From NCBI GenBank assembly GCA_016125275.1, contig WGMB01000003.1:434001-498000 (forward strand): a stretch of DNA of 64,000 nt, written 5' to 3'. A program made the translations under genes and the position numbers. The stretch is from Acidobacteriota bacterium. GTDB lineage: Bacteria > Acidobacteriota > Terriglobia > Bryobacterales > UBA6623. Under the pieces are notes generated by a model. It did no database searches, had not been told where the DNA came from, and saw only the letters and a program-made list of their open reading frames with translations. Below are positions 1,732-47,539 of the stretch, in pieces (position 1 is the stretch's first letter; each line of letters opens with the position of its first letter).

Positions 1732-4700
1732 TTGGATTTCACCGTCATCCGTCACCCTTCCGCTCCCGATCCCGCTTTGTCCGGGGCCGACGATCCCTCG
1801 AAGGCCTCGGCGGCGCGCTTGGCCGCGCGGGCGGCTGAAGATCGCCAAGCGTGGAAGCCTGTCACGCCGGAATCCGCGCGGCGCAAGCTCAGCGAAGCCG
1901 CCGCCACGGTGGACGCCGCCTGGGAGCGGGCGCGGCCAAGTCGCAGCGACCGGGACGCGGCGGCCCCGGATCAGGATCTGTGGCTGATTGAGAATCACCG
2001 GCTCATCGAAGCCGTAGTCAAAGACCTCGACCAGCTCCTGCGCGACCTTTCGCGACGACCACGACGCGATGAGGCCCGAAACTGGCTGACCCTCGAGGCC
2101 GCGGCCGGCTACATCGAAGCCGCCGGCGGCCGCTTCGATCCCGAAGGCGTCGAGGCTTACGTCCTGGCGGCGCAGAAGGGCCGGCCGTGGGACCTCCGCG
2201 AAGTCTGGTCGCTGAAGCCTGCCCTGCAACTGGCTTTGCTCGATCGGCTGGCTCGAGCGCTGCAGGACAAGAGCGAGGACGAAGCCGAGCCTGCGGCGGA
2301 GCGGGTTCGGCACTGCTTCACAAGCCTGATCCGCATTGAGCAGACCGATTGGGCGCGCCTCTATGAGAGTCTCAGCGAAGTCGAGCGCGTTCTGCGCCGC
2401 GAACCGGCTGACGTGTACCGCCGCATGGACGCCGAAACGAGGGAGCGTTACCGGGCTGCCGTGGCGCAACTCGCGGACCGCTCGACGCACAGCGAGGCGG
2501 AAGTGGCTCGTCGCGCCGTGGTCATGTCGGCCTCGGCACGAGCCAACCCCGCCCCGGACGCCCGCGCCGCCGAGCGCCGGGGCCACGTGGGCTACTACCT
2601 GATCGACGACGGCCGCGAGATGCTGGAGGCGGCCATCGGCTTTCGCCCCCGCCTGCGCGAACGCTTCCTGCGCCACCTGTTGCGGCAGCCCACAGCCTAC
2701 TACCTCACCGTGGTGGAGCTGATCGCTCTGGCAGTGATCCTGCTGCTGACCGGCGGTTCCGGCGACCTCAATCCCTCCTGGGCAATTCCGCTGTTGCTGC
2801 TGCTGCCTTCGCTCGATACGGCGATCGCCATCGCCAACCGGCTGGCGACGCTGCTGCTGCCCCCGCGCGTGCCGCCCAAGCTTGACTTCAGCGAAGGTGT
2901 AGCGGAGGACAGCAAGACGCTGGTGGCCGTCCCGACGCTGCTGCTCAACGAAGCCCAGGTCGAGGACATGGTCAGCCAGTTGGAGATCCGTTTCCTGGCC
3001 AATCGAGATCCGCAGATCGCCTTCGCCCTCATCACCGACGCGCCGGACTCGGACCGCGAGGTCGATGAGCATGACCGCTTGAGCGAGCTCTGCTCGACTC
3101 GCATCGAGGAGCTCAACCAGCGTCACGCGGAGGGCTCGCGGCAACCGTTCCTGCTGCTGCATCGCCGCCGACGCTACAACGAGAGCGAGAAGGCCTGGAT
3201 GGGCTGGGAGCGCAAGCGCGGCAAGCTCGTGGAGCTCAACGAGCTGCTGCTGGGCCGCTCCGATCAGTTTCCGATCAAGGTGGGCGATGTCAGGCAGTTG
3301 GAGGAGGTGCGCTACGTCATCACCCTCGACGCCGACACGCAGCTGCCGCGCGACGCCGCCCGGCGCCTGATCGGCGCCATGGCGCATCCCCTCAACCGGC
3401 CCGTCGTCGACCCGGATTCCGGCGTCGTCACCGAGGGCTATGCGCTCATCCAGCCCCGCATCGGCATCAGCGTACAATCGGCCACGCGGTCGCGGCTGGC
3501 GGCGGTCTTTTCGGGGGAGACCGGCTTCGACATCTACACGCGCGCCGTCTCGGAGACCTATCAGGATCTGTTCGGCGAAGGGATCTTCACGGGCAAGGGC
3601 ATCTACGAAGTCGAAACGTTCGAGCAAGTGTTGCGTGACCGCTTTCCCGCCAACGCCCTGCTGAGCCACGACCTGATCGAAGGCATCCACGTGCGTTGCG
3701 CGCTGTCGTCGGACATCGAGCTGATCGACGACTACCCTTCCCGCTTCGACGCCTTCGTCAAGCGCAAGCACCGCTGGGTGCGGGGTGACTGGCAGATCCT
3801 GCGCTGGCTGTTCGCACGGGTTCCAAACGGGCGGGGCGAGTGGTCGCCGAACCCCTTGTCGACGATCTCGCGCTGGAAGATCTTCGACAATCTGAGGCGC
3901 AGCCTGCAGGACTCGGCGATCTTCGCGCTGCTGGTCTGCGGCTGGCTGTTCCTGCCCGGCGGAGCTCCGTTCTGGACTGTCGCCGTCCTGATCCTGTTCG
4001 CGCTGCCCGGCTACTGCAATCTGGCGCTGACGATGCTGGGCCTGCCGTGGGCCCACAACAAGCGCTCCGCGCTGCGAGGGTCTTTGGAGGCGTTCGCGGA
4101 GAACCAGATGCATGTCTTCCTCTTTCTGGCCTTCCTGCCGTTCCAAACGCTGCTGATGCTGGACGCCATCGCGCGGACAATCCGCCGGGTTTATGTGACG
4201 CGCAGGCGGCTGCTGGAGTGGCAGACCGCGGCCGAAGCCGAGATGGGCCGCCCGCGGCGGGGACCCGTCGAGAAGTACGTGGACGCCTCGGCCTGGGTCG
4301 CAGTAGCCGTGGCGGCGGTGATCGCTTTGGTCCGGCCGGAATCGTTGTGGGCCGCTTGGCCGTTGCTGGCCCTGTGGATCCTGCTCAAGCCCATGACGCG
4401 TTGGCTCGACAGCGCCCCAGCCCCGGCGCGCCCGTCGTCGCTGCCGCGCGATGCGCGCTTCCTACGGGATCAGGCCCTGCTGCAGTGGCGCTTCTTTGAC
4501 GACAACTGCACCGCCGAGGACAATTGGCTGATCCCGGACAGCGTCCAGGAGTCGCCCGCTCTGGTCGTCCACCGGACGTCTCCCACCAACGTCGGACTGC
4601 TGCTCAACGCGCGCTTGGCGGCGCATGAGCTCGGGTTCGCCACGCTGCCGGAAACAGTCGACCGCATCGAGGCCACCCTGGCGACCATGGAGCGCATGGA

Positions 4701-6174
4701 GCGACCGCATGGGCACTTGCTCAACTGGTACGACACCCGGACACTGCAGCCGGCCCCGCCCTACTTCATCTCGACCGTGGACAGCGGCAACTTGGCGGGC
4801 TGTCTGTGGGCCCTGAAGCAAGGGCTGCTCGAGATGGTGGAGCGGCCGGCGGTATCGCCGGAAGCCGCCGAGGGCCTCACCGACGTCGCTCGGGCCCTGG
4901 CCGGCTCGCTCGAATCGCCTCCGGCCGACTTTCTGCCACGGTTCGCTGCGGCGGCCGAGGTTTGGCGCGCAGGCGGTTCGGAGAGCTCAGACCCGTTCCG
5001 CGAGATGCTGACGCTGGTGGAGAGCGCCGGCAAGGCCTCCACTCCGGCCAACGTGGAGGGCGAGTATTGGCGACGCCGCGCCACGGATCGCGTCCTCGGT
5101 CTCCGGCTCGCCATCCGCGATCTGGCGCCTTGGCTGGACCCGTCGATACGGCAGGCGCTGGAAGCGTCCGGAATCCAGCTTCCCGGCGATATCACGGCGA
5201 CCAGTCTGGCGCGGACGCCGGCCGTGCTGAAGTCGCTGATCGCCGAGGCGCGTAGCGTCGACGCCGACGACGAGCTCCTGTTCGGTCTGCTGCAATGCTG
5301 CCGCAACGCCGCCGGTTTGGTCGAACGCATCCATGACCTCGCCGACCGCGCTGACGCTTTGGCGACGGCGATGGACTTCAGCATCCTGCTCAACCGCGAC
5401 CGCAAGCTGCTGTCGGTCGGCTACGACGTCTCCACCGGCTTGCTCGAGCGGAGTTGCTACGACCTGCTGGCCTCGGAGGCCCGCATGGCCGTGTTCGTGG
5501 CGCTGGCCAACGGCTTGGTTCCTCAGGAGACTTGGTTCCGCCTCGGCCGGGCGCACGTTCGCGTGGGCAACCAGTGCGTGCTGGCCTCCTGGACCGGCAC
5601 CCTGTTCGAGTACCTGATGCCCCTGCTGTGGATGCGCTCGTATCCGCACACGCTGATCGACAGCAGCGTGCGCGCGGTGGTGGAGGTGCAGAAGCGCGCC
5701 GCGGCGCGCCAAGGAGCACCGTGGGGCGTCTCCGAGGCCGCCTACGGCCGCCGGGACCAGCACGGCTTCTACCAGTACCACGCCTTTGGGCTGCCGTCGG
5801 TCGCCCTCAAGGAGACGCTGCCGCCCGACCTGCCGCGCTGGGTGGCGGCGCCCTACGCGCTCTACCTGGGGTTGCAGATCGACCCCGGCGCGGCTCTCGA
5901 GAGCCTGCAATCCATCCACGAGAGCGGCTGGAGCGGGCGGTATGGGCTGTATGAGTCGATCGAGTTCGAGCAGGAGAGCTCAGAGGGGAGGCCGATCCGG
6001 TCCTGGATGGCTCACCACCAGGGAATGGCCTTGGTAGCCGTCTGCAACGTTTTGCACGGCTACCCCTTCCGGCGCTGGTTCCACGCCGAGCCCAGCGTGA
6101 GCGCGGCGGAGTTGCTGCTGCACGAGCGCATTCCCAGCTCCCTGGCGGCGGAGGCCGAGGAGCGGGCGGCATGA
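1732..6174 (+). CDS. Cyclic beta-1,2-glucan synthase-like GT84/glucoamylase-domain protein without GH94
   Basis: 1480-residue membrane glycosyltransferase resembling NdvB/ChvB. The start is TTG at 1732, supported by GGAGG seven bases upstream. Order: soluble N-terminal region (to about 300), two membrane segments, GT84 catalytic region with DADTQLP (about 534-540) and HRWVRGDWQ (about 680), three further membrane stretches (to about 900), then the glucoamylase-like domain (about 920-1460) ending with SWMAHHQGMAL. In NdvB, the glucans are built by the GT domain, and a C-terminal GH94 phosphorylase controls chain length; full proteins are about 2800 residues. Here a clean stop follows the glucoamylase-like domain and no GH94 gene follows, so product size control must differ or reside elsewhere. 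It is probably co-transcribed with the upstream exporter and the downstream MBL gene. Confidence 0.85.
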   Translation: MDFTVIRHPSAPDPALSGADDPSKASAARLAARAAEDRQAWKPVTPESARRKLSEAAATVDAAWERARPSRSDRDAAAPDQDLWLIENHRLIEAVVKDLDQLLRDLSRRPRRDEARNWLTLEAAAGYIEAAGGRFDPEGVEAYVLAAQKGRPWDLREVWSLKPALQLALLDRLARALQDKSEDEAEPAAERVRHCFTSLIRIEQTDWARLYESLSEVERVLRREPADVYRRMDAETRERYRAAVAQLADRSTHSEAEVARRAVVMSASARANPAPDARAAERRGHVGYYLIDDGREMLEAAIGFRPRLRERFLRHLLRQPTAYYLTVVELIALAVILLLTGGSGDLNPSWAIPLLLLLPSLDTAIAIANRLATLLLPPRVPPKLDFSEGVAEDSKTLVAVPTLLLNEAQVEDMVSQLEIRFLANRDPQIAFALITDAPDSDREVDEHDRLSELCSTRIEELNQRHAEGSRQPFLLLHRRRRYNESEKAWMGWERKRGKLVELNELLLGRSDQFPIKVGDVRQLEEVRYVITLDADTQLPRDAARRLIGAMAHPLNRPVVDPDSGVVTEGYALIQPRIGISVQSATRSRLAAVFSGETGFDIYTRAVSETYQDLFGEGIFTGKGIYEVETFEQVLRDRFPANALLSHDLIEGIHVRCALSSDIELIDDYPSRFDAFVKRKHRWVRGDWQILRWLFARVPNGRGEWSPNPLSTISRWKIFDNLRRSLQDSAIFALLVCGWLFLPGGAPFWTVAVLILFALPGYCNLALTMLGLPWAHNKRSALRGSLEAFAENQMHVFLFLAFLPFQTLLMLDAIARTIRRVYVTRRRLLEWQTAAEAEMGRPRRGPVEKYVDASAWVAVAVAAVIALVRPESLWAAWPLLALWILLKPMTRWLDSAPAPARPSSLPRDARFLRDQALLQWRFFDDNCTAEDNWLIPDSVQESPALVVHRTSPTNVGLLLNARLAAHELGFATLPETVDRIEATLATMERMERPHGHLLNWYDTRTLQPAPPYFISTVDSGNLAGCLWALKQGLLEMVERPAVSPEAAEGLTDVARALAGSLESPPADFLPRFAAAAEVWRAGGSESSDPFREMLTLVESAGKASTPANVEGEYWRRRATDRVLGLRLAIRDLAPWLDPSIRQALEASGIQLPGDITATSLARTPAVLKSLIAEARSVDADDELLFGLLQCCRNAAGLVERIHDLADRADALATAMDFSILLNRDRKLLSVGYDVSTGLLERSCYDLLASEARMAVFVALANGLVPQETWFRLGRAHVRVGNQCVLASWTGTLFEYLMPLLWMRSYPHTLIDSSVRAVVEVQKRAAARQGAPWGVSEAAYGRRDQHGFYQYHAFGLPSVALKETLPPDLPRWVAAPYALYLGLQIDPGAALESLQSIHESGWSGRYGLYESIEFEQESSEGRPIRSWMAHHQGMALVAVCNVLHGYPFRRWFHAEPSVSAAELLLHERIPSSLAAEAEERAA

Positions 6175-7008: not shown

Positions 7009-8412
7009 TTACTGAATGTAGCCGAGGCTCTTGAGCGCTTCCTTGTCGCGATCGGTCATGCGGTTCTCGCCGTCGCCGAGGTCCGTGGACTTGTACCACT
7101 TCGCCAGCGCCTCTTCTTCCTTCTGGTAGGCCCTCTCGTCGTCGTCGGGCTTGAGCGGGCTGTTCTCGAAGGGGTCCTTGGCGAGGTCGAAGATCTGCAT
7201 GTTCTTGTCATCCGGCTTCCAGATGACCTTGCGGTCTCCGGTGCGGTAGCCGACGAACTCGGGGAAGTTCAGCTCGCGCAGCCACATCTTCGATAGCCAG
7301 GTCGGCATCACCCACTTCTGGCCCGAGAACGCCACGTAGCGCACGGTCCGCTCGGGGATCGACGAACCTTCCAGGATGTTGTCCGCCAGGCTGCGCCCGA
7401 CGTACTCGGTGGGGACCTGCGCTTCCGGGTTGGCCCGCTTTACGGTCAGATCCACGATCGTCGGCAGCAGATCCAGCGTGCTGACCTTGGTCTCGACCAC
7501 CTTGCCGCCCTCGATCGTGCCCGGCATGCGGAAGATCATTGGGATGTGGACGACGTTCTCGTAGAGCGACGAGCTGTGGCCTTGGTAGTTCCGCTCGCCG
7601 ATGCTCTCGCCGTGGTCGGCGACCAGCACCACCAGGGTGTTCTCCTTCAGGCCCATGCCGTCGAGAGAGTCCACCAGCTTGCCCACCCAGTGGTCGGTAT
7701 AGAGGATCTCGCTGTTGTAGGCCTTCAAGTTTTCCGGCACCACCGCCTGGCCGCGGTCCTTGGTGTGGTCGGGCTCGCCGGTCGTCTTGGTGACCTCGAA
7801 CTCCTTGCGGAAGTCGTAGGGCGAGTGCGGATCGAAGAAGTGGACCCAAGCGAAGAACGGACCTTCCTTGTGCGCCTCGATCCACTTGATCGCCCGCGGG
7901 GCCACGTCCTCGGCGTAGCGCATCGAGTTGATCATCTGGTAGCTGCGGCTCAAGTCCTCGTCATAGGTGTCGAAGAACGCGTCGAGCTTCGTCAGCCGCT
8001 TCGTCAGAGGCCAAGCGCTCACGAAGGCCCCGTTCTGGTAGTGGTGCCGCTGCAAGATCTGCGGCAGGAACAGGAATTTTGAGTCCGCCGGCACGGCGAA
8101 AGCGTTCAGTTTCGCGCCGTGCTCCTGCGGGTAACGGCTGCAAAACATCGAATAGTGCGAGGGAGCCGTCCGCGAGGTCACCGTGTAGGCGTTGGCGTAA
8201 CGCACGCCTTCCCCGGCGAGGCGGTCAATGTTAGGGCTGGTTTCGAGGTGATATCCCCAGGATGAGAGGTGATCTGCGCGCAGGGTGTCGATCGTAATGA
8301 ACAACACATTGGGCAGCTTCTCCTTGGGCGTTTCCGGGGCGGCGCCGATCGAGAAGGTAACGACCAGGGCGGCGAAGACGAGCAGTAGATACGGAGCGGT
8401 ATGTCGTCGCAC
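7009..8412 (-). CDS. Sulfatase-family (alkaline phosphatase superfamily) hydrolase
   Basis: A 467-residue protein with one N-terminal hydrophobic segment (YLLLVFAALVVTFSIGAA), so lipid-anchored, membrane-tethered or secreted. The sulfatase domain starts with NVLFITIDTLRADHLSSWGY (first metal site) and has LVVLVADHGES (later metal site). The activation motif expected as CxPxR in true sulfatases reads TSRTAPSHYSM, with no Cys or Ser in the formylglycine position; a Thr probably occupies the nucleophile site, as in many phosphatase or phosphotransferase relatives. The GTG at 8412 is chosen because the upstream extension (to 8514) is basic and proline-rich and a TACAAT box ends only six bases before it. 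Substrate cannot be read from sequence. Confidence 0.75.
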   Translation of the reverse strand: MRRHTAPYLLLVFAALVVTFSIGAAPETPKEKLPNVLFITIDTLRADHLSSWGYHLETSPNIDRLAGEGVRYANAYTVTSRTAPSHYSMFCSRYPQEHGAKLNAFAVPADSKFLFLPQILQRHHYQNGAFVSAWPLTKRLTKLDAFFDTYDEDLSRSYQMINSMRYAEDVAPRAIKWIEAHKEGPFFAWVHFFDPHSPYDFRKEFEVTKTTGEPDHTKDRGQAVVPENLKAYNSEILYTDHWVGKLVDSLDGMGLKENTLVVLVADHGESIGERNYQGHSSSLYENVVHIPMIFRMPGTIEGGKVVETKVSTLDLLPTIVDLTVKRANPEAQVPTEYVGRSLADNILEGSSIPERTVRYVAFSGQKWVMPTWLSKMWLRELNFPEFVGYRTGDRKVIWKPDDKNMQIFDLAKDPFENSPLKPDDDERAYQKEEEALAKWYKSTDLGDGENRMTDRDKEALKSLGYIQ

Positions 8413-8418
8413 CTTTCG

Positions 8419-8448
8419 ATTGTACCGTGCCGCCGTCGGAGGGGTCAG
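8419..8448 (-). promoter_or_regulatory. Putative promoter of the sulfatase-like gene
   Basis: On the minus strand CTGACC (8448-8443) and TACAAT (8424-8419) are separated by 18 bases. The predicted start point falls at or next to the GTG at 8412, which would make the message leaderless or nearly so. Inference from motif spacing only. Confidence 0.4.
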
Positions 8449-8510
8449 CGGCGAGTAAGGCGAGGTCGGCTCCCCTCGTCCAACCTCGCCTCGCCGCGTC
8501 GCCCGAGGCC

Positions 8511-8738
8511 TCAAGCCTGAAAGGCGCCGTGGCCGTTGTCTTTGCCGCGCCCCGACTTGTAGATCGGGCGGTTGGGATCGGTGCGCCGCGGACGGACCTT
8601 CCGCGGCGGGTCTTCCGCCAGAGCTTCCACCTGCTCAATGGCGGAATCGAGTAGCGCGAGCTCGTCACGCAACTCCGAGATGGCCTTGTAGATCAATTCG
8701 GTAGCAATTTCAGACTGAGCGTACTTTTTCATCAGCAT
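8511..8738 (-). CDS. Small hypothetical protein, 75 residues
   Basis: I do not recognise a family. ATG 8738 is chosen over the upstream ATG at 8798 because GGGGAG sits eight bases before it. The first 45 residues look like a charged helical segment (SEIATELIYKAISELRDELALLDSAIEQ), followed by a basic proline-containing tail (DPPRKVRPRRTDPNRP). There is no signal peptide or membrane segment, so it is probably cytoplasmic. It lies between the terminator of the large haem protein gene and the sulfatase-like gene, and may be transcribed alone or with the latter. Confidence 0.6.
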   Translation of the reverse strand: MLMKKYAQSEIATELIYKAISELRDELALLDSAIEQVEALAEDPPRKVRPRRTDPNRPIYKSGRGKDNGHGAFQA

Positions 8739-8845
8739 TCTGTTTTCTCCCCTGCGGGGTCGGAATCGACTACCTGCCATCTGCATGTACGAGGCCAAAG
8801 CGACGAACGGATGGCAAAGCCCTCACGAAATGCTGAATTCGTTGA

Positions 8846-8893
8846 GAAAAAGCAACAGCGCGCAGGCGGACGGGCCGCACTGCGCGCTGTTGC
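8846..8893 (-). terminator. Rho-independent terminator after the 1602-residue protein
   Basis: A 14-bp perfect stem (8852-8865 with 8880-8893, GCAACAGCGCGCAG and its complement) with a 14-base loop. On the minus strand it is followed at once by five T residues. It lies 22 bases after the stop of the large minus-strand gene. Confidence 0.85.
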
Positions 8894-8914
8894 GTGAGAC
8901 AACCGGTGAGACAG

Positions 8915-11900
8915 TTAGCGTCCGCTCTGGAGACGATGTTGTTTCAGGACCCACTCGCGGATGAGACGGTACCCCGCCTCGTCGCGCTCGTAGCGGACGC
9001 CGCCCTGGTGCCCGTCTTCTTCGCCCGTCTGGATGTTGAGCGGCTTGATCAGGAACTTCGAGCGCTCCACGTCGACCAGATCCACGCGCTGCTGCATCTT
9101 GCGGTAGTTGGCCAGCAGATCCTCGGGCGCAATGTAGCCGGCGGCGTCCGGCGGCGCCAAATAAAGAGTCGGCACCCGCCCCGGGACTCCATGGCATGAA
9201 ATGCAAGCCCGGTTATCGCGGTCGCTGATCTTATTGAGCTCGGCAAAGACGTAGTCGCGGAAGTAAAGCAGGTCGTCGATCCAGACCTTCTCGGTCCCCA
9301 GCGGACGCACCTCCACCGCCTGCCCGCCGGACTGCTGCTCGATCAACTTGGTGAGCTGACCGCCGTAGACCTCGTCGTCACTGTTGAGGATGTTCTGGAT
9401 GCGGGTCTTGAACTGCGGGATCGGCTCGCGGTCCACATACTCGGCCAGGGCCTTGCGGATGTCGGGGTTCCGGCGCAGAGCGGTCTTGTTCGCGAGGCGG
9501 ATGGCCTGCTCACGGATCTCCTTCGGCGTGTCAGTGGAGAACCAGCGGGTGAACATGGCGACGACGTCGTCCTTGGCCACCACGATCGGATCAATCACAT
9601 CCACGCCCTGGGCGTCCTTGGCGAACAACGAACCGGTTCCGTCGTCAGGCGCCAGCTTCAGGTAGTCCAGGCCGAACACGTAGTTGGGCTCCGCCTCGGG
9701 GTTTGCGCCGAGCATGCTGATCTCCAGGCGGTTCTCGCCCTGCGTCAGCGAGAACACGCCGAGCGACACCGGTCCGCTGGCGCTCATCGATTCCCGGTAG
9801 AAGTCCCAGCTTTCGCCGATCTCCTCGCCGTTGAGCGCGAAGCGAACCGTCCCCATCTCACGGTCGTAGAGAAACGCCGCGATCAGCTCGTAGGAGCCGG
9901 CGGCGGGCGCGTCGATCGCGAACGTGAGCTTGGCCCCGGGAATGCCCTCGCGCCACCACAGCACGGTGTTGCGGCTGGCCAAGCCGTCCGGCACGAGCTG
10001 CTGCGTCGTGCGGCCGAAGGTCAGGCCCAGCACGCGCAAGTCCTCGGCCTCCACGGCGCCCTCCAGGGCCTCCTCCGCCGAGAGGGAGCCCTGCTCGTAG
10101 GAGAGCATCCACTCCGCCGAGGGCAGCCAGAACTCCGGGCGACCACCGGACACGTAGTCGAACGCCGCCGGCCGCTGCAAGGTCCGGTTCTCTCCCAAGA
10201 TCTTGCCCAGCAGCGTCGCCCGCTCGTCGTAGCCCACCGGCGCAGGCTCAGGGGCGGGCGCCGGCTCCGGAGCCGGCCTGCCCAGCAGGGTCGTCCTGGC
10301 GCGCCGGGGCGCCGCCGCCTGCCGGCGCGGCAGCGTAAGCAGTTGGTAGAACTCCCGTTCCTGCTGCTCGCTCACGTCGGCAAAGTCCCAACGCACCTTC
10401 GACAGGAAGTTGACCAGCGCCGCCGCGTCTTCGGCCCGTCCGTCGGAGAGGAAGCGGTCCACGGTCGCCAGCATCGGGCGCAGCGTCTCCGGCGTCGCCT
10501 TGAGCTCCAGGGCCTGCGGGTTCGACAGGGCCTTGGCCGCCACGGCGACCATCTCCAGGTCGTCCGACTGCAACAGGCTCAGCAGGCTTTGTTGGAGCTC
10601 CGTATGGTTGATGTTGGCAGCGCCTTCGAGGGCGATCTTGCGCCACGGAACGGCGCCGTCGCCGGCTTCGTTGCGATAGACCGCCAGCACGGCGTCGCCC
10701 AGGGTCTCGCTGGACCCTGGGGTCGAGTAGCCCATCTGGCCGGGGCCTCCATCGTTGCCGCGCTCCTGGAAGTGGGTGGCGGCGACGGCGGCCAGCCGCC
10801 GGTCGAGCAGGCTGCGTTGCGCCGACGCCAGGGCCTGCCGCTCGTCCGAGAGCAAGCGGTACAGCTCGGAGAGCTCGGGGTACTGCTGGTCGAGGTTGTC
10901 GCCGCCGGTCTGGTTGGCGATCTGGCCGTTGACGATCAGCATCGAGGCCGTGGAATAGCGCAGGGCGGCCTCGACGTGAGCGTTGGGCTCCGGCCGGCTC
11001 AGCCGCTCCACCCAGGCCCGATTGAGGACGTCCCGCATGCCGGGATTCCAGACCCACCAGCGCCAGGAAGCTTTCGGAGCGTAGGCCCGCACGCCGGGAT
11101 GGCGATCCTGGAACCCTTCGGCGATCACGCGCGCCAGCTCGGCCGGGTCCACGCTCGCCCGCGGGCCGCTCAGGTCGGCTCGGGTCACCAGCGCCTGCAT
11201 CAGCGACTGCCGCGTGCGGTCGTCGCCCTGACGGAACGCCTCGAACGCCTGCGGCCAGCCCTTGTCGTCGAGCAGCAACTGCCTGAGCGACCAGAACGCG
11301 GCTTCACGGCAAGCCTTCACGCCGTCGCCCAAGCCCTCGATCAGCGTCGGCAAGCCCTGCTCGGCCAGCGCGCCGCCCAAGCCGAGATAGGCGTGGTAGC
11401 GCACCTGAGCGTGCGGGCTGCCGGCGGCGGCGATCATCAGGTCGGCGAAGTCCTGGCGACCTGTCTTCTCGAGCGCCCGGACGCGGGCCAATTCCGCCAG
11501 GAAGGTCTCGCCGGCCTTTGGCTCGAAGTCCTCCCGGCGAAATTCCGGGGCGTCTCCGGGATAGAGCCGGCTCAAGGCGCGGATCACGTAGGCGTTGGTG
11601 ACAAAGCCCGTCTGGGCCGCCTTGTTCCACAAACCATAGGGGTACTGGTTCGCCAGCAGCCAGCCGACCGCGCGACGCACCGGGGCGTCGTCCGGCCCGT
11701 AGCCGGCCGCCCGCAGCGCAATCAGGGCGACCGCCGTGGGAGCGGCGTCGGGCGCCTCGTCCATGCGCTTCCAGCCGTCGCCGTCGGCCACGCCGAGGTC
11801 GAATCCCCAGCCGCCGTCATCCTGCTGCAAGGCGAGCAGCCGGTCGAGGTCTCGCCGGGCCTGCGCGTCCAAGGCGTCCAGCAGCTCGACGGCGGCCGCC

Positions 11901-13723
11901 TGCCGCTGCGGATCGCGGTCGCTCAGCCGCGCCACGGTCTCCAGGTACTCGTCCCGTTTGGGGAACAGATCGCGGACGAACTCGATGCGGTGCGCCAAAT
12001 CATCGACGACCTTGAGCTGGTTATCGCCCGTCGCCAGAATCTTGCGGGCCTTCTCCTCCAGCCCGAGAAAGTACTTGGGGTTGCCGGTGTCGCGCCAAGC
12101 TCGTTCGAGGATCTCGCCCGAGAACTTGAACACCACGTTCGGGCCGAAGTTGGAGCCCTTGCCGGCGGCGTTGATGCCTTGCGGATCCGCGGTCATCAGC
12201 ACGTAGTTGGCGGTGCGCCGCTGCTGATGGGAATGCAGCTTCTTGGGCCGGAAGGTCCGCTCGTGGAGCACGATGTTGCGGCCCGCGACGCGGCTGCCCG
12301 CCGGGGCGTCGCCCAAGTCGTTCGGCGCCAGCGAGGTGTTCACGGCGCCGTCCTCGAGCTTCACCGTCGGCCGCAGGCTCTCGTACATCGTGTTCACCAG
12401 CCTGCGATGGTTCTGGTTCGTGCCCTCGGGCCGATAGCCGGACCGGAAGGCGTCCGCCACGCCCCACACGCCGCTCTGGGTGTGGCAGCTCATGCAAGAT
12501 TCGCCAAACAGGCTCGATCCGTCGCGGACCCGAGTGTGGGTGGCGATGTTGCGCGGCCGGTGGATGAGCCAGGCGTCCACCTCGGCGAGGTGATAGTAGA
12601 TCGACTGCCGAACGGCGTCGTAGGGGTTGTCGAATGGCGCTCCGTCGATCAACCGCAGCTCCAGCTCATAGCCGGGCTGATTGGCTTCGACCCGCAGATA
12701 GTAGGTCTCGCCGGGCTGGATCTTGCGCGCCAGGAAGGACCGGAAATTGTCGTCCTGCTGGTGCAGGCGCTCGTTGATGTCGCGTCCGTCGTAGAAGGTG
12801 TAGACGGGCTGGGGACCCGGCAGGATCTCGGCCGGCGGGTGCACGTAGGGCACGGGATTGGCGTTGCCGAAATCGGTCGACGGCGGGGGCTCGCGCGGCT
12901 CGATCTCGTCGGCGGAAGGCTCTCCCTGGCGGTAGAAGCGCAGCCGGGCGCTGACCACGGGCTCCGCCATCTGCAGATTGGCCGTCAGCAGCTTCGGTTT
13001 GCTGCCACGATGGACCACCCGAAACCAGTCGTCCGGCCCCTTGCCGGATTCGGCGTTGTGGAAGTACTCCAGCTCGTCCTGGCCGCCGAGGATACGGATC
13101 GTTTGGTTCGCGTCTCCCGCCGCCAGCGGGAGATCCGTAGCCATCTCCGGCGTATTGTTCGGCTCGGCTTCGAGCAGCAGGCCTTCGCCGGCCAGCTTGT
13201 CGACCTTCGCGAGCGACACTTCCACGGCGGTCCCGGCCGGCGCAGGCGTTCGCGTCGGCAAAGGCGTGGCCTTGCTCGCCAGGCCGTCGTCACGCTGGTA
13301 GTCCGGCGTGGGTTGCGGCGCGTCGAGCAAGGGAGAGACCGTCAGGGTGTAGCGGCCCGCCTTCGGCGCTCGGTAGAGCAGATAGACGTCGGGGTCGAGA
13401 GCGTGCAGCGTCTTCGACCAGTCCGCCGTCGCCTCGGCGTGCAAGTCGCCGCGTTCGCCGCGGTACTGTTCCAGAGCCGGCCCGGTCCAGCGCGCCAGAA
13501 TGCGGGCATTGGGCGGCAGTAGCGACGGCTCCTTGACGCCGACGCGGATCTCCAGCGCCTGGCCTTCGATGAAATCCCACGATTGCGTCCACGAAGCGTC
13601 GGAAGAAAAAGTGACTGACAGGGGCGGCGCGGACGACCCGGAGGATTCGGCGCTCCAAGCCAGAACGGCCGCCCCGGAGACGACCGCGATCAACAAGAAA
13701 ATAAGGCGAAATCGTGGTCGCAT
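8915..13723 (-). CDS. Giant secreted multidomain protein: PPC-like, two CxxCH haem sites, QW/terpenoid-cyclase-like repeats
   Basis: A 1602-residue protein. Residues 1-25 are a signal peptide. A segment beginning EAEPNNTPEMATDL (about 186) has the look of a bacterial pre-peptidase C-terminal (PPC) domain. CMSCH at 410-414 is a c-type haem site. QQDDGGWGF at 633-641 and a second similar stretch near 690-700 resemble QW repeats of squalene-cyclase-type alpha/alpha barrels. Helical repeats of HEAT type probably fill about 740-1150. A proline/alanine linker near 1160 precedes a sugar-binding-like beta domain (about 1230-1350). CISCH near 1507 is the second haem site. It is likely periplasmic or surface exposed. 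Function unknown; with the haems it could move electrons or sense redox. It has its own terminator and a candidate promoter. Confidence 0.8.
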   Translation of the reverse strand: MRPRFRLIFLLIAVVSGAAVLAWSAESSGSSAPPLSVTFSSDASWTQSWDFIEGQALEIRVGVKEPSLLPPNARILARWTGPALEQYRGERGDLHAEATADWSKTLHALDPDVYLLYRAPKAGRYTLTVSPLLDAPQPTPDYQRDDGLASKATPLPTRTPAPAGTAVEVSLAKVDKLAGEGLLLEAEPNNTPEMATDLPLAAGDANQTIRILGGQDELEYFHNAESGKGPDDWFRVVHRGSKPKLLTANLQMAEPVVSARLRFYRQGEPSADEIEPREPPPSTDFGNANPVPYVHPPAEILPGPQPVYTFYDGRDINERLHQQDDNFRSFLARKIQPGETYYLRVEANQPGYELELRLIDGAPFDNPYDAVRQSIYYHLAEVDAWLIHRPRNIATHTRVRDGSSLFGESCMSCHTQSGVWGVADAFRSGYRPEGTNQNHRRLVNTMYESLRPTVKLEDGAVNTSLAPNDLGDAPAGSRVAGRNIVLHERTFRPKKLHSHQQRRTANYVLMTADPQGINAAGKGSNFGPNVVFKFSGEILERAWRDTGNPKYFLGLEEKARKILATGDNQLKVVDDLAHRIEFVRDLFPKRDEYLETVARLSDRDPQRQAAAVELLDALDAQARRDLDRLLALQQDDGGWGFDLGVADGDGWKRMDEAPDAAPTAVALIALRAAGYGPDDAPVRRAVGWLLANQYPYGLWNKAAQTGFVTNAYVIRALSRLYPGDAPEFRREDFEPKAGETFLAELARVRALEKTGRQDFADLMIAAAGSPHAQVRYHAYLGLGGALAEQGLPTLIEGLGDGVKACREAAFWSLRQLLLDDKGWPQAFEAFRQGDDRTRQSLMQALVTRADLSGPRASVDPAELARVIAEGFQDRHPGVRAYAPKASWRWWVWNPGMRDVLNRAWVERLSRPEPNAHVEAALRYSTASMLIVNGQIANQTGGDNLDQQYPELSELYRLLSDERQALASAQRSLLDRRLAAVAATHFQERGNDGGPGQMGYSTPGSSETLGDAVLAVYRNEAGDGAVPWRKIALEGAANINHTELQQSLLSLLQSDDLEMVAVAAKALSNPQALELKATPETLRPMLATVDRFLSDGRAEDAAALVNFLSKVRWDFADVSEQQEREFYQLLTLPRRQAAAPRRARTTLLGRPAPEPAPAPEPAPVGYDERATLLGKILGENRTLQRPAAFDYVSGGRPEFWLPSAEWMLSYEQGSLSAEEALEGAVEAEDLRVLGLTFGRTTQQLVPDGLASRNTVLWWREGIPGAKLTFAIDAPAAGSYELIAAFLYDREMGTVRFALNGEEIGESWDFYRESMSASGPVSLGVFSLTQGENRLEISMLGANPEAEPNYVFGLDYLKLAPDDGTGSLFAKDAQGVDVIDPIVVAKDDVVAMFTRWFSTDTPKEIREQAIRLANKTALRRNPDIRKALAEYVDREPIPQFKTRIQNILNSDDEVYGGQLTKLIEQQSGGQAVEVRPLGTEKVWIDDLLYFRDYVFAELNKISDRDNRACISCHGVPGRVPTLYLAPPDAAGYIAPEDLLANYRKMQQRVDLVDVERSKFLIKPLNIQTGEEDGHQGGVRYERDEAGYRLIREWVLKQHRLQSGR

Positions 13724-13759
13724 GGCGCTTTGGAGGAACTATTTCCCTGGTCGGGCGGC

Positions 13760-13768
13760 ATTTTATCA
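13760..13768 (-). promoter_or_regulatory. Extended -10 element upstream of the 1602-residue protein gene
   Basis: The minus strand reads TGATAAAAT at 13768-13760, an extended -10 form (TGN plus hexamer). The start codon is at 13723, leaving a leader of about 30 bases. No clear -35 box. Confidence 0.35.
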
Positions 13769-13777
13769 CAGCCAGCC

Positions 13778-13850
13778 GAAACCGCCGTTTCTAGGCGGTT
13801 TCACCTACCACGTATGGATCGGTAGTCCCACCAAAATGAACCCTTCGGGG
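13778..13850 (+). other. Three consecutive hairpins in the divergent intergenic region
   Basis: Hairpin 1: GAAACCGCC (13778-13786) with GGCGGTTTC (13794-13802). Hairpin 2: CTACC (13805-13809) with GGTAG (13821-13825). Hairpin 3: CCC-TTCG-GGG (13841-13850), a stable tetraloop form. They lie upstream of the GGDEF-EAL gene. They could be a leader structure or protein sites; I cannot match them to a known riboswitch. Confidence 0.35.
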
Positions 13851-13880
13851 GATTGACCATCCGTAGCATTCAATCGGATC

Positions 13881-15890
13881 TTGAGTGAGACAGGAAAAGA
13901 GGGTTCGGCCGATCCGCCGGAGCTTCAGCCGTCTTTCTTGAGACAAATGCGGCCTTCCCAACGAGCGCCCCGTTCGGAGAGCGCCCTGGGCCCGGTGAAC
14001 CCGGCGCCACTGGGGACGCTCTACCTGGCCCTTGCCTTGCCGCCGACGGACCCCTGGACCCTCGGCTTGCTGGCGGCGTTCTGCTTCACACTCTTCGCGC
14101 TCATTCGCTCGCGGCGCAACGCCGGCTTGGCCCAGAAAGCGCTGAAGGATAAGAAGGCCAAAGCCACGACCCTGGAGCGCTTCGCGGACATCGCCCTCGA
14201 GGACGCCGAGGTCGGCCGCTGGGTCTGGGACCTCAAGAAGGACAAGGTGGAGTACTCGGCCGGCTGGCGGCGCATGATGCGGCTGGAGCCGGACGACCTG
14301 CGCGGCGACCTGAACGACTGGTTCCAGAGAATCCATCCCAATTACCTGGGCGAGGTCAAGGAAGCCATCGCGGCGCACTTGGAAGGCAAGAATCCCCGCT
14401 TTGAGTGCGACTTCCGCATTCAGCGCGGCGACGGCACCTACCTGTGGGTGCTCAGCCGCGCCGCCGCCCACCGCGACGCCGCAGGGAAGCCCGAGTACCT
14501 CGTCGGCGCGCAGATCGACATCACCGCGGTCGTCGATGTGGAAAAACGGGTCCTGCACGACGCCTACATCGACAAGCTGACCGGGTTGCCGAACCGCCGA
14601 GCCTTCCAGAGCATCCTCGAGCGAGCCTGCGAACAATCCGCCCGCGACAACTTCCAGTTCGCCGTCGTATTCATCGACCTGGACCGCTTCAAGCAGGTCA
14701 ACGACAGCCTCGGGCACGGGGTGGGCGACGAGCTGCTCGCGGCCGTTTCGGCCCGGCTCAACCGCCAACGCCGCTCCGGCGATACCGTGGCGCGGCTGGG
14801 CGGCGACGAATTCGTGGCGTTGCTGGGCGACATCATCGAACCCGAGCAGGCCGTGGACGCCGCCAAGCGGATTCACCGCGCCCTCTGCGAGCCCTTCCGC
14901 CTGGGGCGGCACGAGGTCTACAGCGGCGGCAGCATCGGCGTAGCGGTCAGCGGCTGCCCGTCCTGCGACGCCGAGACCATCCTGCGCCAAGCCGACCAGG
15001 CCATGTATCAAGCCAAGACCGGCAAGACGGGCGTGGCCCTGTTCAGCGAGACGATGCGCTCGAAGGCGTCGCGCGAGCTCAGCATGCAATCGGAGCTGGT
15101 GCGCGCCGCCGAACGCTCGGAGTTCCAACTCTACTTCCAGCCGATCGTAGACCTGCGCTCGTGGCGAATCGTCTCCGCCGAAGCCTTGCTGCGCTGGACG
15201 CGGCCGGACGGCGAACGCGTCCGCGCCGCCGAGTTCATCCCGCTGGCCGAAGAGCTGGGCTTGCTGGGCGAGTTGGGCGAGCTGGCGTTACGGATGGCCT
15301 GCACGCAGCGCGCGGAGTGGTTCGCTCAAGGCTTCCAGCAATTCCGCATGGCCGTGAATCTCGGCTCGCTGCAGTTGCAGAAGCACGACCTGGCCGCCCA
15401 CGTGGAGAGCATCCTGCTGCAATCAGGCCTCGACCCGCAGCTCCTCGAGATCGAGACGACCGAGTCGGCTCTCATCGACAGCCTGCACGTCGCCTCCAGG
15501 AATCTCGCGCGCCTCGACTCCATCGGCGTCGGCCTCTCGCTCGACGACTTCGGCGTGGGCTACGCCTCGCTGTCCTACCTGCAGCGCTTTCCCTTCCAGA
15601 GCGTGAAGGTGGACCGCTCCGTGATGGGAGAGCTCGAACCGGGTTCCAAGGCCGTCAGCCTGCTGCGGGGGATGGTCACGCTCGCGCACTCCCTGGACAT
15701 GCGCGCCGTCGCCGAGGGCGTGGAAGCCCCGGCCCATCTGGAGACGCTGCGCGAGCTGGGCTTCGACCGCGCCCAAGGCTTCTGCCTGGGGCGTCCGATG
15801 CCGGCCGAGCAGCTCACCCAGCTTCTGGCCGGAGAGGCCCGCATGCTGCGGGAGCGGCTCACCGCCCGCGAAGCGACGACCTCGCACTGA
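13881..15890 (+). CDS. PAS-GGDEF-EAL cyclic-di-GMP turnover protein
   Basis: A 669-residue signalling protein. One or two membrane segments lie near residues 50-75 (LYLALALPP... GLLAAFCFTLFALI). A PAS/PAC sensor follows (about 105-220, EVGRWVWDLKKDKVEYSAGW). The GGDEF domain has an intact RLGGDEFVAL (about 305-313), so diguanylate cyclase activity is possible. The EAL domain has AEALLRW (about 433), LEIETTESALID, DDFGVGYASL and AEGVE, so phosphodiesterase activity is also possible. The start is TTG at 13881; ATG 13947 is an alternative with no better ribosome site. A PilZ protein and flagellar genes in the window are possible outputs, though not linked by operon. Confidence 0.9.
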   Translation: MSETGKEGSADPPELQPSFLRQMRPSQRAPRSESALGPVNPAPLGTLYLALALPPTDPWTLGLLAAFCFTLFALIRSRRNAGLAQKALKDKKAKATTLERFADIALEDAEVGRWVWDLKKDKVEYSAGWRRMMRLEPDDLRGDLNDWFQRIHPNYLGEVKEAIAAHLEGKNPRFECDFRIQRGDGTYLWVLSRAAAHRDAAGKPEYLVGAQIDITAVVDVEKRVLHDAYIDKLTGLPNRRAFQSILERACEQSARDNFQFAVVFIDLDRFKQVNDSLGHGVGDELLAAVSARLNRQRRSGDTVARLGGDEFVALLGDIIEPEQAVDAAKRIHRALCEPFRLGRHEVYSGGSIGVAVSGCPSCDAETILRQADQAMYQAKTGKTGVALFSETMRSKASRELSMQSELVRAAERSEFQLYFQPIVDLRSWRIVSAEALLRWTRPDGERVRAAEFIPLAEELGLLGELGELALRMACTQRAEWFAQGFQQFRMAVNLGSLQLQKHDLAAHVESILLQSGLDPQLLEIETTESALIDSLHVASRNLARLDSIGVGLSLDDFGVGYASLSYLQRFPFQSVKVDRSVMGELEPGSKAVSLLRGMVTLAHSLDMRAVAEGVEAPAHLETLRELGFDRAQGFCLGRPMPAEQLTQLLAGEARMLRERLTAREATTSH

Positions 15891-42717: not shown

Positions 42718-44187
42718 TCAGGCCAGCAGGGGTTTGACGACGCTCGCCGGTTCCACGCCGGTCAGCTTCTGGTCCAGCCCTTGGTACTGGTAGGTAAAGC
42801 GATTGTGGTCGATGCCGAACAAGTGCAGCATCGTCGCCTGCCAGTCGCGAATGTGCACCGGGTCCTTGACGATGTTGTAGGAGAACTCGTCGGTCTCACC
42901 GTGCACCACGCCGCCCTTCACGCCGCCGCCCGCCATCCACATGGAGTAGCAGCGGGGATGGTGATCCCGGCCGTAGGTCTCTTGGGTCAGCTTGCCCTGG
43001 CAGTAGATGGTCCGGCCGAACTCGCCGCTGAAGATCACCAGCGTCTCGTCGAGCAGGCCCCGCAGCTTCAAGTCCTGCACCAGGCCGTAGACCGCCTGAT
43101 CGACGTCACGGCACATGCTCGGCAGCACTTCCGGCAGCGAGTTGTGGACGTCCCAGCCGCGCTGGTAAATCTGCACGAATCGCACGTCGCGCTCCATCAT
43201 GCGGCGCGCCAACAGGCAGGTGTACGCCATCGTGCCGGGCTTGCGGGCGTCCTTGCCGTAGAGCTCGTAGGCCGAGGCCGGCTCCTTGGACAGGTCGGTC
43301 AAATCCGGCGCCGAAGACTGCATCCGGAAGGCCATCTCGTACTGCTCGATACGGGCGAGCGTCTCCGGGTCGGCGATCTTTTCGTGCTGGATCTGGTTGA
43401 GCTCGCTCAGCCCGTCGAGCATCGTCCGGCGCACGTCCTGCGGCACGCCCTCGGGGTTGCTCACGAACAGCACCGGGTCCGCGCCCGCCCGCAAGGCCAC
43501 GCCCGCGTACTCGGCCGACAGGAAGCCCGCGCTCCACAGCCGCGCCGAGATCGCCTGCACGCCCGCCTTGGGGTGCGAGTGCGTCGCGTTCATCACCACG
43601 AATGTCGGCAGGTCGCGGTTCATCGAACCCAGCCCGTAGGCGATCCAGGAGCCGATGCAGGGTTTGCCGGCGATCTGGTTGCCGGTCTGGATGAAGGTGA
43701 TGGCCGGCTCGTGGTTGATGGCCTCGGTGTGCATCGAGCGGATGATGGCGATGTCGTCGGCCATCTTGGCGGTCTGGGGCAGCAACTCCGAGATCCAGGC
43801 CCCGGACTGACCATACTGCGCGAACGAAAACTTCGACGGCACGATCGGGAAGCGCGTCTGCCCCGAGGTCATCGTCGTCAGCCGCTGGCCCTTGCGGATC
43901 GATTCCGGCAGGTCCTTGTCAAACCACTCCTTCATGCCCGGCTTGTAGTCGAACGTCTCCATCTGCGGCGGCGAACCCACCAAATGGATGTAGATGGCGC
44001 GTTTGGCCTTGGGCGCAAAGTGCGGCAGCGAATCGCCGACGCGGGGAACGGCCAACGCGGATTGGCCGGCCATGGAGGCCAGCGCCAGACCGCCCAGGCC
44101 GCGCGCGCCGCGCCCAAAAAACTGCCGACGGGTCTCGGTTTGAACGGCGTCAGCCGCGGTGCGGTGGGGTGACTTGGGAGGGATCAC
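42718..44187 (-). CDS. DUF1501 secreted protein with Tat signal
   Basis: 489 residues from GTG 44187. The N-terminus has a twin-arginine signal ([23 protein letters not shown], about 19-41). The DUF1501 domain belongs to the alkaline-phosphatase/sulfatase-like superfamily: [21 protein letters not shown] near 65, [16 protein letters not shown] near 362, [21 protein letters not shown] near 385. The start overlaps the stop of the DUF1549/DUF1553 gene (GTGA); the two families nearly always occur together in Planctomycetes, Verrucomicrobia and Solibacter-like bacteria. Function is unproven; polysaccharide-related use is commonly supposed. Confidence 0.9.
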
Positions 44188-47100
44188 TTGTTCAAGACCT
44201 CGTCGAGATTGAGCAGTTGGTTGGCGACCATCGTCCAGGCCGCCACTTCCGACGCAGGGCCCGGCGAGGGGGGCGACGCCCCGACGGCCAGCAGTTTGCG
44301 CGCGTCTTCGGGATTGGTGTCGTAGTGCCGCATGAATTGGCGGTACGAACCCTGCACCGCCGACCGCTCGCGCCCCTCGAACGGCCGGGCCAGCAAGCGC
44401 TCGGTGATGAAGTCCAACCGCGCATCAAAGCCGTCCGCCGAGGCCACCGTCCGAGCGGCCAGCGTGCGCGCGGCCTCCACGAACTGGGGGTCGTTCATCG
44501 TCACCAGCGCCTGCAGCGGCGTATTGGTGCGTTCGCGGCGGACCGTGCAACTCTCGCGGGTCGGCGCGTTGAAGATGTCCATCGACGGGTTCGGCGCCGA
44601 GCGCTTCCAGAACGTGTACAGGCTCCGGCGATACAGCTTCTCGCCCTGGTCGCGCTGGTAGAAACGGGTGTTGCTGCCGTACATCGCCACCGTCTCCCAG
44701 ATCTTGGCCGGCTGGTAGGGCTTCACGCTCGGCCCTCCAACCTCTTCGATCAGCAGCCCGCCCGCCGCGAGAGCATAGTCGCGCACCATCTCGCCGTCCA
44801 TCCGGAAACGCGGACCGCGCGACAGCAGCTTGTTGAGCGGATCTTTGTCGAGCTTGTCCGGCGTCGCGGCCGCCGCCTGGCGATAGGTCGACGACATCAC
44901 CATGGTCTTGATCAGCCGCTTGACGTCCCAACCGGATTCCTGGAAGTCCACGGCCAGCCAATCCAGCAGCTCAGGGTGGGTCGGCGGCGTTCCTTGCGAG
45001 CCGAAATCCTCGGCGGTCTCGACGATGCCCTTGCCGAACAACTCCTGCCAAAAGCGATTAGCGGTCACACGCGCCGTCAACGGATTGCCCGGGTCCACCA
45101 GCCAGCGGGCCAAGCCCAGCCGGTTGCGGGGCAGGTCGGCGCTCATCGGCGGCAGCACGCCCGGCGTGGCCGGCTCGACCTTCTCGCGCGGCTGGTCGTA
45201 CATGCCGCGATAGAGGATGTGGGCAAAGGCCTCGGAATCCTGCTCCTGCTGGATCAGCGTCACCGGGGTGCGCCGCAGAATGTCGAGCCGCTCAGTCTGC
45301 AGCGCCGTCAACTGCCGGTCGGCGGCCTCGAACTCGGCGTCGCGGCGCACCAAATAGTATTGCGACTGCGCTTCCCGCTCGCGCTCGCTGAGTTGGTCGG
45401 CGCGTTTGCCGCGGGAGGTCTCCACGGCGTCCCACAGCGCCAACAGCTTCGCCTCGGAGTCGCTCACGGCGCGATCCAAGACGCGGAAGTCCGCAATGGC
45501 GCCTTCCAGATAGCCCGACTTCTTGTCCGGCTCGTCCTCATCGGCCTCGCGATCGACGGCCCCTAGCACCAACGGCTGCTCGGTTGCGATCTCGGCTTCC
45601 AGCACCCGCAGGGCGCGCCCGGTGCGCTCCACCTGCAATCGCTCGCCGTCCAGGAACAACGAAAAATCTTCACGCTGCCGCCCGCCGCGATAAACCACCG
45701 TCAGATGACGCCATTCGCCGGCTTTGATCAGATCCTTCTCCGCCGCACGCATCCCAAAATCCTGGTTCTGCGCGGACATCATGGTGACCTGCGGACGCCC
45801 CTCGCGGATCTCGATGCGCCAACCGCGGTCGTCCAGCTTGTCCGGGTCCGGCTCGAAATAATTCTGGCTAGCCAATGTGCGGGCGCCTTCGACGTCGTCG
45901 AGCCGGAAGCGGATCGCCACGGTAAAGGGTTTGCCGGAATGCAACGGCTGGACTCCTGGAACGTCCGCCCAAGTCTTCTTGGGAAACAGCAAAGCCTGCA
46001 ACCCCGGGGCCGGGCCTTCGACGAGATGGACCTCCGGGGCCGGCTCGAGGTCCGTGCGGCCCTTGGGGGTTTCGAGCCGCGGCGCCTTGCTCAGATCCAA
46101 CGCGAAAGCCTCGCTCTCATCAAAGGCTCCGGCCTTGAGCTTGCGGCGCTTCCTGGAATCGAGCCAATCTGACGGATCGGCCTTTTGGGCTAGCGCATCG
46201 AGGCGGTCATGAGCCGCCGGCAACTCGGTCTTGAGGGCGTCCCAGCGCGCTTCATCCTCGGCCGACGGCACGAAGACGATCGGCGGCGTGTCATAGATAT
46301 TGCCGTCGCGCGGCTCCTGTGTGGTATTGCGGAAGAACGCCGCCAGCGAATAGAAATCCTTCTGTTTGATGGGGTCGAACTTGTGGTCGTGGCAGGTCGC
46401 GCAACCCACCGTGAGGCCCATCCAAACTGTGCCCGTGGTGTCCACGCGGTCCTTGGCGTACATCGCCGCGACCTCTTCGTCGATCACGCCGCCTTCGTTG
46501 GTGGTGACGTTGCAGCGGTGGAAGCCGGTGGCGATGAGTTGTTCGCGCGTGGGGTTGGGCAGCAGATCGCCTGCCAGTTGCTCGACCGTGAACTGGTCGA
46601 ACGGCATGTTCTGGTTGAACGCCCCGATCACCCAGTCGCGGTAAGGCCACATCTCGCGGTAGTTGTCGATGTGCAGCCCGTGCGTGTCGGCGTAGCGGGC
46701 GGCGTCGAGCCAGTAGCGCGCGCGGTGCTCGCCGTAGGCCGGCGAGGCCAGCAGCCGGTCCACGAGATTCTCGTAGGCGTCGGGCGAGGAGTCGTTGACG
46801 AAGGCTTCGACTTCGGCCGGGGCCGGCGGCAGGCCGGTCAGGTCGAGCGTCAGGCGGCGGATGAGCGTGCGGCGGTCGGCCTCCGGCGCCGGCGCCAAGC
46901 CGTTGCGCTCGAGCTCAGCCAGGATGAAGGAGTCGATGGGGTTGCGAGGCCAGTTCTGGTCGCGAACGGCCGGCGGCGCGGGCCGCTCCGGCGCGCGGTA
47001 GGCCCACGGCTCGCTCCACTCGGCGCCGGCTTCGATCCACTGCTTGATCTTTTCGATTTGCTCCGGTTTCAGCGACTTGTGCGAGTACTCCGGCGGCATC

Positions 47101-47369
47101 CGCAGCGCCGCTTGCTCGTGGGTGATGCGCTGGTAGACGAGGCTGGCGGCAGGGTCGCCGGGGGCGATCGGCGTGCCGTGGTCGCGCTTGGCAAAGGCCC
47201 CGTCCTTGACGTCGAGCCGCAGGCCGGCCATCCGCGTTTCGGGGTCAGGGCCGTGGCAATGGAAACAGGCGTCGGAGAGGACCGGGCGGATCTCCCTCTG
47301 AAAATCGGGACCGGCGGCCCCGGCGGCAGCGGCCACAAACAGCGCAAGGAGTAGCGAGCGCAAGCACAT
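44184..47369 (-). CDS. DUF1549/DUF1553 protein with planctomycete cytochrome domain
   Basis: 1061 residues from ATG 47369; ATG 47381 overlaps the predicted -10 box and is not used if that promoter is real. Signal peptide [18 protein letters not shown]. The PSCyt1 domain has haem site CFHCHG near 34-38. DUF1549 follows ([40 protein letters not shown]) with a second [12 protein letters not shown] near 300. A LamG-like sandwich lies about 460-620 and DUF1553 covers the last 300 residues ([34 protein letters not shown]). Secreted or periplasmic; likely electron transfer coupled to macromolecule use (inference). Confidence 0.9.
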
Positions 47370-47381
47370 ACGAGCGCTCAT

Positions 47382-47410
47382 ATTATGGGACGCTTTTCGC
47401 GTTCGCGCAA
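47382..47410 (-). promoter_or_regulatory. Promoter of the DUF1553-DUF1501-phosphatase operon
   Basis: Minus strand: TTGCGC (47410-47405), 17-base spacer, CATAAT (47387-47382). The expected start point near 47375 leaves about six bases before ATG 47369, i.e. an almost leaderless message. The rest of 47411-47539 holds no gene. Confidence 0.5.
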
Positions 47411-47539
47411 AGATCGTTTCGCTGATCGAAACAGGGGCGGCCCTAGCGGTCAATCTCAAAGGGGCCAACCGTTTCATCGGCCGGTCCGGCTGATGAAACC
47501 CGCGTGTTGACGTTTCGAAGCGAACTCGCCACGCGCTGC

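Follow-up and report, generated by a model that had tools for sequence, protein, structure and literature searches.

On the minus strand of the 64,000-nucleotide stretch of DNA that we analyzed (the window), a single open frame with an ATG start encodes a protein of 1602 amino acids (Table 1). By eye, its N-terminus looks like a Sec signal peptide. The neighbouring PAS-GGDEF-EAL gene (13881-15890) points the opposite way, divergently, and the space between the two genes contains an inverted repeat; the folding energy of 13770-13810 is -22.7 kcal/mol (z -4.6). The initial annotation gave the two-haem gene, as we will call it, its own promoter and its own terminator. The terminator is borne out by its folding energy. 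A simple terminator scan did not pick it up, probably because the scan allows loops of at most 8 and the inner stem is just 4 pairs long. The promoter was not recovered: a simple sigma-70 scan of 8400-14000 gave a sole site, on the minus strand at 8448-8419, which is not upstream of the gene. The gene is likely to be a separate transcription unit, with a putative promoter. Beyond the terminator, a small ORF of 75 amino acids (8511-8738, minus strand) sits between it and a sulfatase gene. Elsewhere in the window, 1732-6174 on the plus strand encodes a 1480-amino-acid protein with a C-terminal glucoamylase-type domain (PF10091) and no NCBIfam match at E ≤ 1e-6.

Table 1. Features of the two-haem gene and its flanks, with coordinates in the window
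Feature	Coordinates	Strand	Basis
Whole coding sequence, 1602 aa	8915..13723	-	ORF, stop 8915-8917; full-length relatives
Signal-peptide-like N-terminus, residues 1-25	13649..13723	-	Basic start and hydrophobic core, by eye
Beta-rich N-terminal region, residues 40-366	12626..13606	-	Strands in low-confidence AF2 model
Haem-1 module, residues 367-600	11924..12625	-	Invariant columns of alignment A1 and of 29 non-redundant core sequences
Haem-1 site CMSCH, residues 410-414	12482..12496	-	25/25 members; CxxCH in 29/29 core sequences
QW-type alpha/alpha toroid segment, residues 605-720 (QQDDGGWGF, NQYPYGLWN)	11564..11911	-	PF13243; core profile vs squalene-hopene cyclase
HEAT-type helical repeats, residues about 735-1130	10334..11521	-	Best HEAT_2 match 763-844; helices in AF2 model
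Carbohydrate-binding-module-like domain, residues about 1252-1358	9650..9970	-	MiXBM 7ehg, xanthan lyase 6f2p
C-terminal haem domain, HxGG type, residues 1481-1602	8918..9283	-	hhalign vs N-terminal haem domains
Haem-2 site CISCH, residues 1507-1511	9191..9205	-	CxxCH in 25/25
HQGG motif, residues 1572-1575, candidate distal His ligand of haem 2	8999..9010	-	His invariant 16/16
Intrinsic terminator, long stem and T-rich tail	8846..8893	-	-36.8 kcal/mol, z -7.6
Inverted repeat between the two-haem gene and the divergent GGDEF/EAL gene	13777..13803	.	Folding energy of 13770-13810

The initial annotation described a 1602-residue multidomain fusion with no known counterpart and suggested a survey of the architecture across Acidobacteriota. 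The gene and the fusion are both real: we found 24 relatives that share its order of parts at 41-64% identity. These relatives refute a chance fusion or an assembly artefact, whose probability we consider negligible. No model in Pfam or NCBIfam spans the whole protein, and a literature search on this architecture, which covered titles and the beginnings of abstracts with subscription journals mostly outside, found no paper. Judged from its relatives, the protein is real, conserved, and a member of a family without a name in these two libraries; it is not a one-off fusion, and its arrangement of parts is common to a family that occurs in its taxonomic order and also in some genomes elsewhere in the phylum.

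In a search of 61 genomes, close relatives across most of the length (best E about 1e-195 or lower) were present in 16 of the 18 genomes of its own family-level group, counting its own, and in 8 of 43 further genomes of the order. If distant paralogues are counted, 29 of the 61 genomes had a match at E ≤ 1e-6. A single-sequence search of genome contigs identified two close relatives, in MAGs of a Bryobacterales bacterium and a Terriglobia bacterium. Across the phylum, a 25-member profile matched 4 of 396 genomes at E ≤ 1e-30 (its own and three of one other family-level group), with at most two candidates scored for each listed genome. A 16-row profile of the core (A6, haem 1 plus the QW region) matched, at E ≤ 1e-30, 62 of the 150 genomes searched in the order and 6 of the 396 searched in the phylum, with at most 13 and 5 candidates, respectively, scored per listed genome. 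Ten genomes were searched with both the core profile and the profile of the C-terminal haem domain, and all 18 core matches share an ORF with that domain, as judged from place and ORF length. Besides the gene in the window, its genome contains a single distant paralogue that has the core in full (contig C10) and six more matches to the QW part of the core profile only. Relatives were absent from the viral contigs and plasmids that we searched.

The 25 full-length members, including the protein in the window, comprise 17 long forms and 8 short forms. A tree of 28 rows unites the 8 short forms with full support; the long-form branch has weak support (42/76), and the program gave a warning about long branches.

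The protein carries the conserved CxxCH of a c-type cytochrome twice. The two sites, at about 410 and 1507, had been noticed from the single sequence, and both are invariant in all 25 full-length members; the pair is also present in each of the 7 distant paralogues that we examined.

The second site lies in a C-terminal domain whose relatives can be recognized. In the 25 full-length members, an HxGG motif lies 65 residues downstream of haem 2, and HxGG follows haem 2 in all 32 distinct proteins checked; the same check found no MPP after haem 2 in the family. A profile of 16 of these domains retrieved four further proteins from the same genome besides the paralogue: two DUF1592 proteins, one DUF1549-DUF1553 protein, and one YncE-like propeller, all with the domain near the N-terminus. 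Against these N-terminal haem domains, hhalign gave a probability of 99.5% (E = 2.5e-22), a score that is not independent of the search, as the same profile had retrieved the four proteins. By this profile comparison, the domain at the C-terminus is a homologue of the haem domain that DUF1592 (PSD3/PSD5/PSD4/PSCyt3/PSD2) and DUF1549-DUF1553 proteins have at their N-terminus, and both keep CxxCH, S, HxGG, and W. (The propeller protein, at 1273-2856 of locus L068, is an unusual carrier of the domain.) Kinship to the PSCyt1 domains of the same genome is weaker (94.6%, E = 7.3e-8). In PSCyt1, MP is invariant (16/16), and from HxGG versus MP we infer, as the natural reading, that His takes the place of Met as the distal ligand of haem 2. 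The best match among solved structures is a weak one to the dihaem cytochrome FoxE (5mab, E = 7.4e-4), which is limited to positions 3-80.

Could the whole protein then be a member of the known DUF1592/PSCyt families? The initial annotation had recognized that this would undo its reading, and for the C-terminal haem domain the homology is there, along with the weaker kinship to PSCyt1. For the whole chain we consider it very improbable. The haem domain is C-terminal here and N-terminal in DUF1592 and DUF1549 proteins, and the four proteins compared have no HEAT or QW match, although three of the four end at the edge of the locus. PSCyt1-3 and PSD1-5 (which include the PSD2-5 and PSCyt3 domains of DUF1592 proteins) are unmatched in the protein in the window and are missing from the list of 13 families matched by the 25 members. 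The planctomycete cytochromes with PSCyt1 (PF07635) have a similar layout, but the family has HxGG without MPP and no PF07635 match, and a genome-wide PSCyt1 search misses the two-haem gene. The family is a variant of PSCyt-like cytochromes, so far unnamed, in which a second haem is fused to a QW-type core.

By eye, the protein has its densest invariance around haem 1 (alignment A1), where the longest dense block is 384-531. Across 29 non-redundant core sequences from both clades, Ala370, Trp385, Pro390, Arg391, Arg398, CxxCH, Gly429, Asp575, Gly674, Gln693, Gly697, Thr705, Ala716, and Leu717 are invariant. Potential ligands behave differently in the two clades: Met446 and His497 are invariant in the near clade (16/16) and both missing from the far clade (0/13), where 12 of 13 sequences have a His ahead of CxxCH. 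Aside from the His of CxxCH, no His or Met near haem 1 is common to both clades at the 80% level. Therefore, either the ligands of haem 1 are specific to each clade or its site is open.

This pattern bears on whether the protein is an electron conduit or scaffold only, with both haems acting as carriers, haem 1 in an ordinary small cytochrome c fold, the toroid and HEAT repeats binding partner proteins, and no catalysis. Cytochrome_CBB3 matches weakly at 398-444 (E = 1.9e-4, below the cut-off) and matches 21 of the 25 members at E ≤ 0.1, while the haem-2 profile is marginally similar to the haem-1 region (hhalign 82.3%, E = 1e-5, 43 columns). These two matches favour an ordinary cytochrome fold around haem 1, and in the near clade Met446 or His497 could cap the haem. 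However, the invariance around haem 1 seems, by eye, denser than a carrier needs, and neither candidate cap is present in any of the 13 far-clade sequences. We regard the conduit as possible, and as the strongest competitor to the dihaem reading given below.

We also considered a more unusual arrangement, in which haem 1 would be attached covalently inside an alpha/alpha toroid that spans about 367-720, at the mouth of the cavity. The toroid would oxidize a polymer or lipid held in the cavity and would be electrically connected to the PSCyt-type, His-capped haem about 1100 residues away in the same chain, which would make the protein a haem enzyme of a new type. We think this arrangement unlikely, because the Cytochrome_CBB3 match and the haem-2-like match suggest an ordinary cytochrome fold. 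Comparing 367-600 with 600-722 by hhalign gave a probability of 0.4%, versus 0.2% for two reversed controls, which is not significant; by this test, the haem-1 region does not repeat the QW hairpins. Two AF2 jobs with three-row alignments gave poor models (mean pLDDT 45.1 and 59.6); no haem pocket was seen in them, and the model with a mean pLDDT of 45 has helices throughout 367-752. Given these results and the cytochrome-like matches, a haem inside the toroid remains a guess. If haem 1 does sit there, the family would represent a new kind of haem site.

The QW segment itself is not a chance resemblance. PF13243 matches at 619-709 with E = 3.3e-8, over its curated cut-off, and is found in all 25 members at E ≤ 0.1. 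With the core profile, squalene-hopene cyclase scores E = 3.3e-28 (summed over repeats), and the likeness consists of the QW repeats at about 605-720. These observations raise the possibility of a terpenoid or isoprenoid enzyme, whose toroid would act on a hopanoid- or polyisoprene-like substrate, either as a cyclase or as an oxygenase that uses its haems in the manner of RoxA. But the best alignment with squalene-hopene cyclase includes just positions 219-302 of the 355 in the profile, and those with other significant chains extend at most to about 198-324. TIGR01507, the model for squalene-hopene cyclase, reaches 36.6 bits against a cut-off of 431.1, and only at residues 615-713. DxDD is the catalytic motif of squalene-hopene cyclase; it is absent between haem 1 and 330 residues farther on in all 32 distinct proteins (25 near, 7 far). 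The core profile has further, weak matches in complement C4 (E about 0.02) and MmpH (0.32), and the QW segment is therefore a general toroid. Isoprenoid genes are absent from the part of the neighbours that was scanned with profiles. Thus, the "terpenoid-cyclase-like" label of the initial annotation survives only as about 90-125 residues that match toroids, without DxDD, and an enzyme of this kind seems distinctly unlikely.

The remaining parts differ in how well they can be assigned. The helical repeats that had been noticed after the QW segment are of the HEAT type: PF13646 (HEAT_2) scores 30.5 bits against a cut-off of 27.7 (E = 4.6e-7) and occurs in all 25 members at E ≤ 0.1. The stretch that had been called sugar-binding-like resembles xanthan-binding modules in sequence. 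Its matches are MiXBM (7ehg), with E = 3.4e-4 from the single sequence and 8.2e-8 with a profile, and Paenibacillus xanthan lyase (6f2p), with 1.4e-5 with a profile. All 17 long forms have this stretch, and the 8 short forms show mostly gaps there. The PPC-like N-terminus of the initial annotation is not supported: of the N-terminal regions of 16 members, two gave a PF04151 match at E ≤ 1 (the better one 0.2), and that of the protein in the window gave none. A profile search of the region likewise gave no support for PPC.

Next, we asked what the neighbouring genes say about the substrate. The sulfatase-like neighbour that had been pointed out is indeed a sulfatase (7009-8514), 400 bases downstream of the two-haem gene with the 75-residue ORF between. 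However, the tie is not supported. BLAST with the sulfatase (E ≤ 0.01) found no adjacent relative in 21 other neighbourhoods of the family, although a divergent sulfatase could be missed; relatives elsewhere are several genes away (L038) or amount to a 43-residue match near the end of the locus (L034). The genome itself has at least 127 sulfatase match pieces among the 150 candidates scored out of 174; once six split pairs are joined, this comes to about 121 genes, or about one gene per 60 kb. Because of these numbers and the 21 neighbourhoods, the sulfatase neighbour says little, and we do not adopt a sulfatase partnership. The same genome has 56 PSCyt1 and 20 DUF1592 matches. This repertoire of sulfatases, PSCyt1, and DUF1592 in a Bryobacterales-type genome is planctomycete-like. 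The window also contains, at 42718-47477 on the minus strand, a DUF1501 gene that adjoins a PSCyt1-DUF1549-LamG-DUF1553 gene.

A relative of the PAS-GGDEF-EAL gene adjoins the distant paralogue in L046 (5397-7484, E = 8e-71) and occurs in no other of the 21 neighbourhoods. PAS-GGDEF-EAL genes are common, and their presence beside the two-haem gene in both the window and L046 may be due to chance. An AMP-binding-like gene, named by eye, recurs in L034, L035, L037, L040, and L052, and gene clusters c5 and c6 recur in four of these five loci; all are absent from the window. The 20 kb pieces of L038, L041, L053, and L045 contain DUF1549-type genes; DUF1592/DUF1552-type genes occur in L041 and L048, and a DUF1592-like gene in L036. 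Those of L038, L041, and L048 were confirmed with profiles, and the others were assigned by neighbour clustering. We did not take these genes as evidence, because they are frequent in the genome of the window and the loci are interrelated. In the far clade, the two-haem genes of L050 (5655-20000) and L051 (5952-16725) share a cluster with a TolC-family protein, a Soli_cterm propeller, and a PrsT-like TPR protein (of the two loci, only L050 was scanned with profiles). L050 has two such two-haem genes in the cluster and L051 has one; in G498 and G487, as in the genome of L050, a pair of core matches lies on a single contig with about 9.4 kb between them. Among the neighbour genes that recur, there is no conserved partner that fixes the substrate of the two-haem protein.

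Overall, the sequences show a c-type-cytochrome-like protein of an unnamed family, with two conserved haem-attachment sites, a QW segment, HEAT repeats, and a CBM-like domain. Its work is probably a redox job on large molecules. As our main reading, we propose that the protein is a dihaem oxidoreductase or electron carrier, located in the periplasm or secreted, and tied to polymer binding, and we give this function a probability of roughly one-half. The protein would be exported, and both haems would be attached outside the cytoplasm. Electrons would move to or from a partner through the C-terminal haem, which would be bound by CxxCH and probably have the invariant His of HxGG as its cap. Haem 1, fused to the conserved module at 367-720, would be the place of redox chemistry or of contact with a partner, and the HEAT repeats would keep the two ends apart. 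The N-terminal beta region and, in the long forms, the CBM-like domain would bind a polymer, probably a glycan; glycan binding would not be universal in the family, because the CBM-like domain is missing from the short forms.

Several observations point toward this dihaem reading: the invariant CxxCH pair, HxGG in 32 of 32 proteins, a haem domain of the DUF1592/DUF1549 type, the weak match to FoxE, the union of core and haem 2 in one ORF (18/18), the invariance at haem 1, dense by eye, the CBM-like domain close to xanthan-binding modules, and a genome rich in sulfatases and PSCyt genes. Against it, there is no conserved partner gene, no haem pocket in the poor AF2 models, no His or Met at haem 1 (other than that of CxxCH) common to the clades at the 80% level, and no promoter found. 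Passages of a study of freshwater Verrucomicrobia (PMC5615132) bear on both sides. They report that PSCyt genes are numerous in several genomes, often near sulfatase genes and some with CBMs, and that nothing is known of their function. This pattern of PSCyt, sulfatases, and CBMs fits a glycan-linked redox role without proving it. The same passages predict that the PSCyt products of Verrucomicrobia are periplasmic or cytoplasmic and not extracellular, which we counted against a secreted dihaem protein.

The family carries the HxGG haem domain at the end of a protein that also has a second haem, a toroid segment, and, in the long forms, a sugar-binding-like module. It thereby ties this haem domain to polymer binding, and it offers a route to testing the role of this domain.
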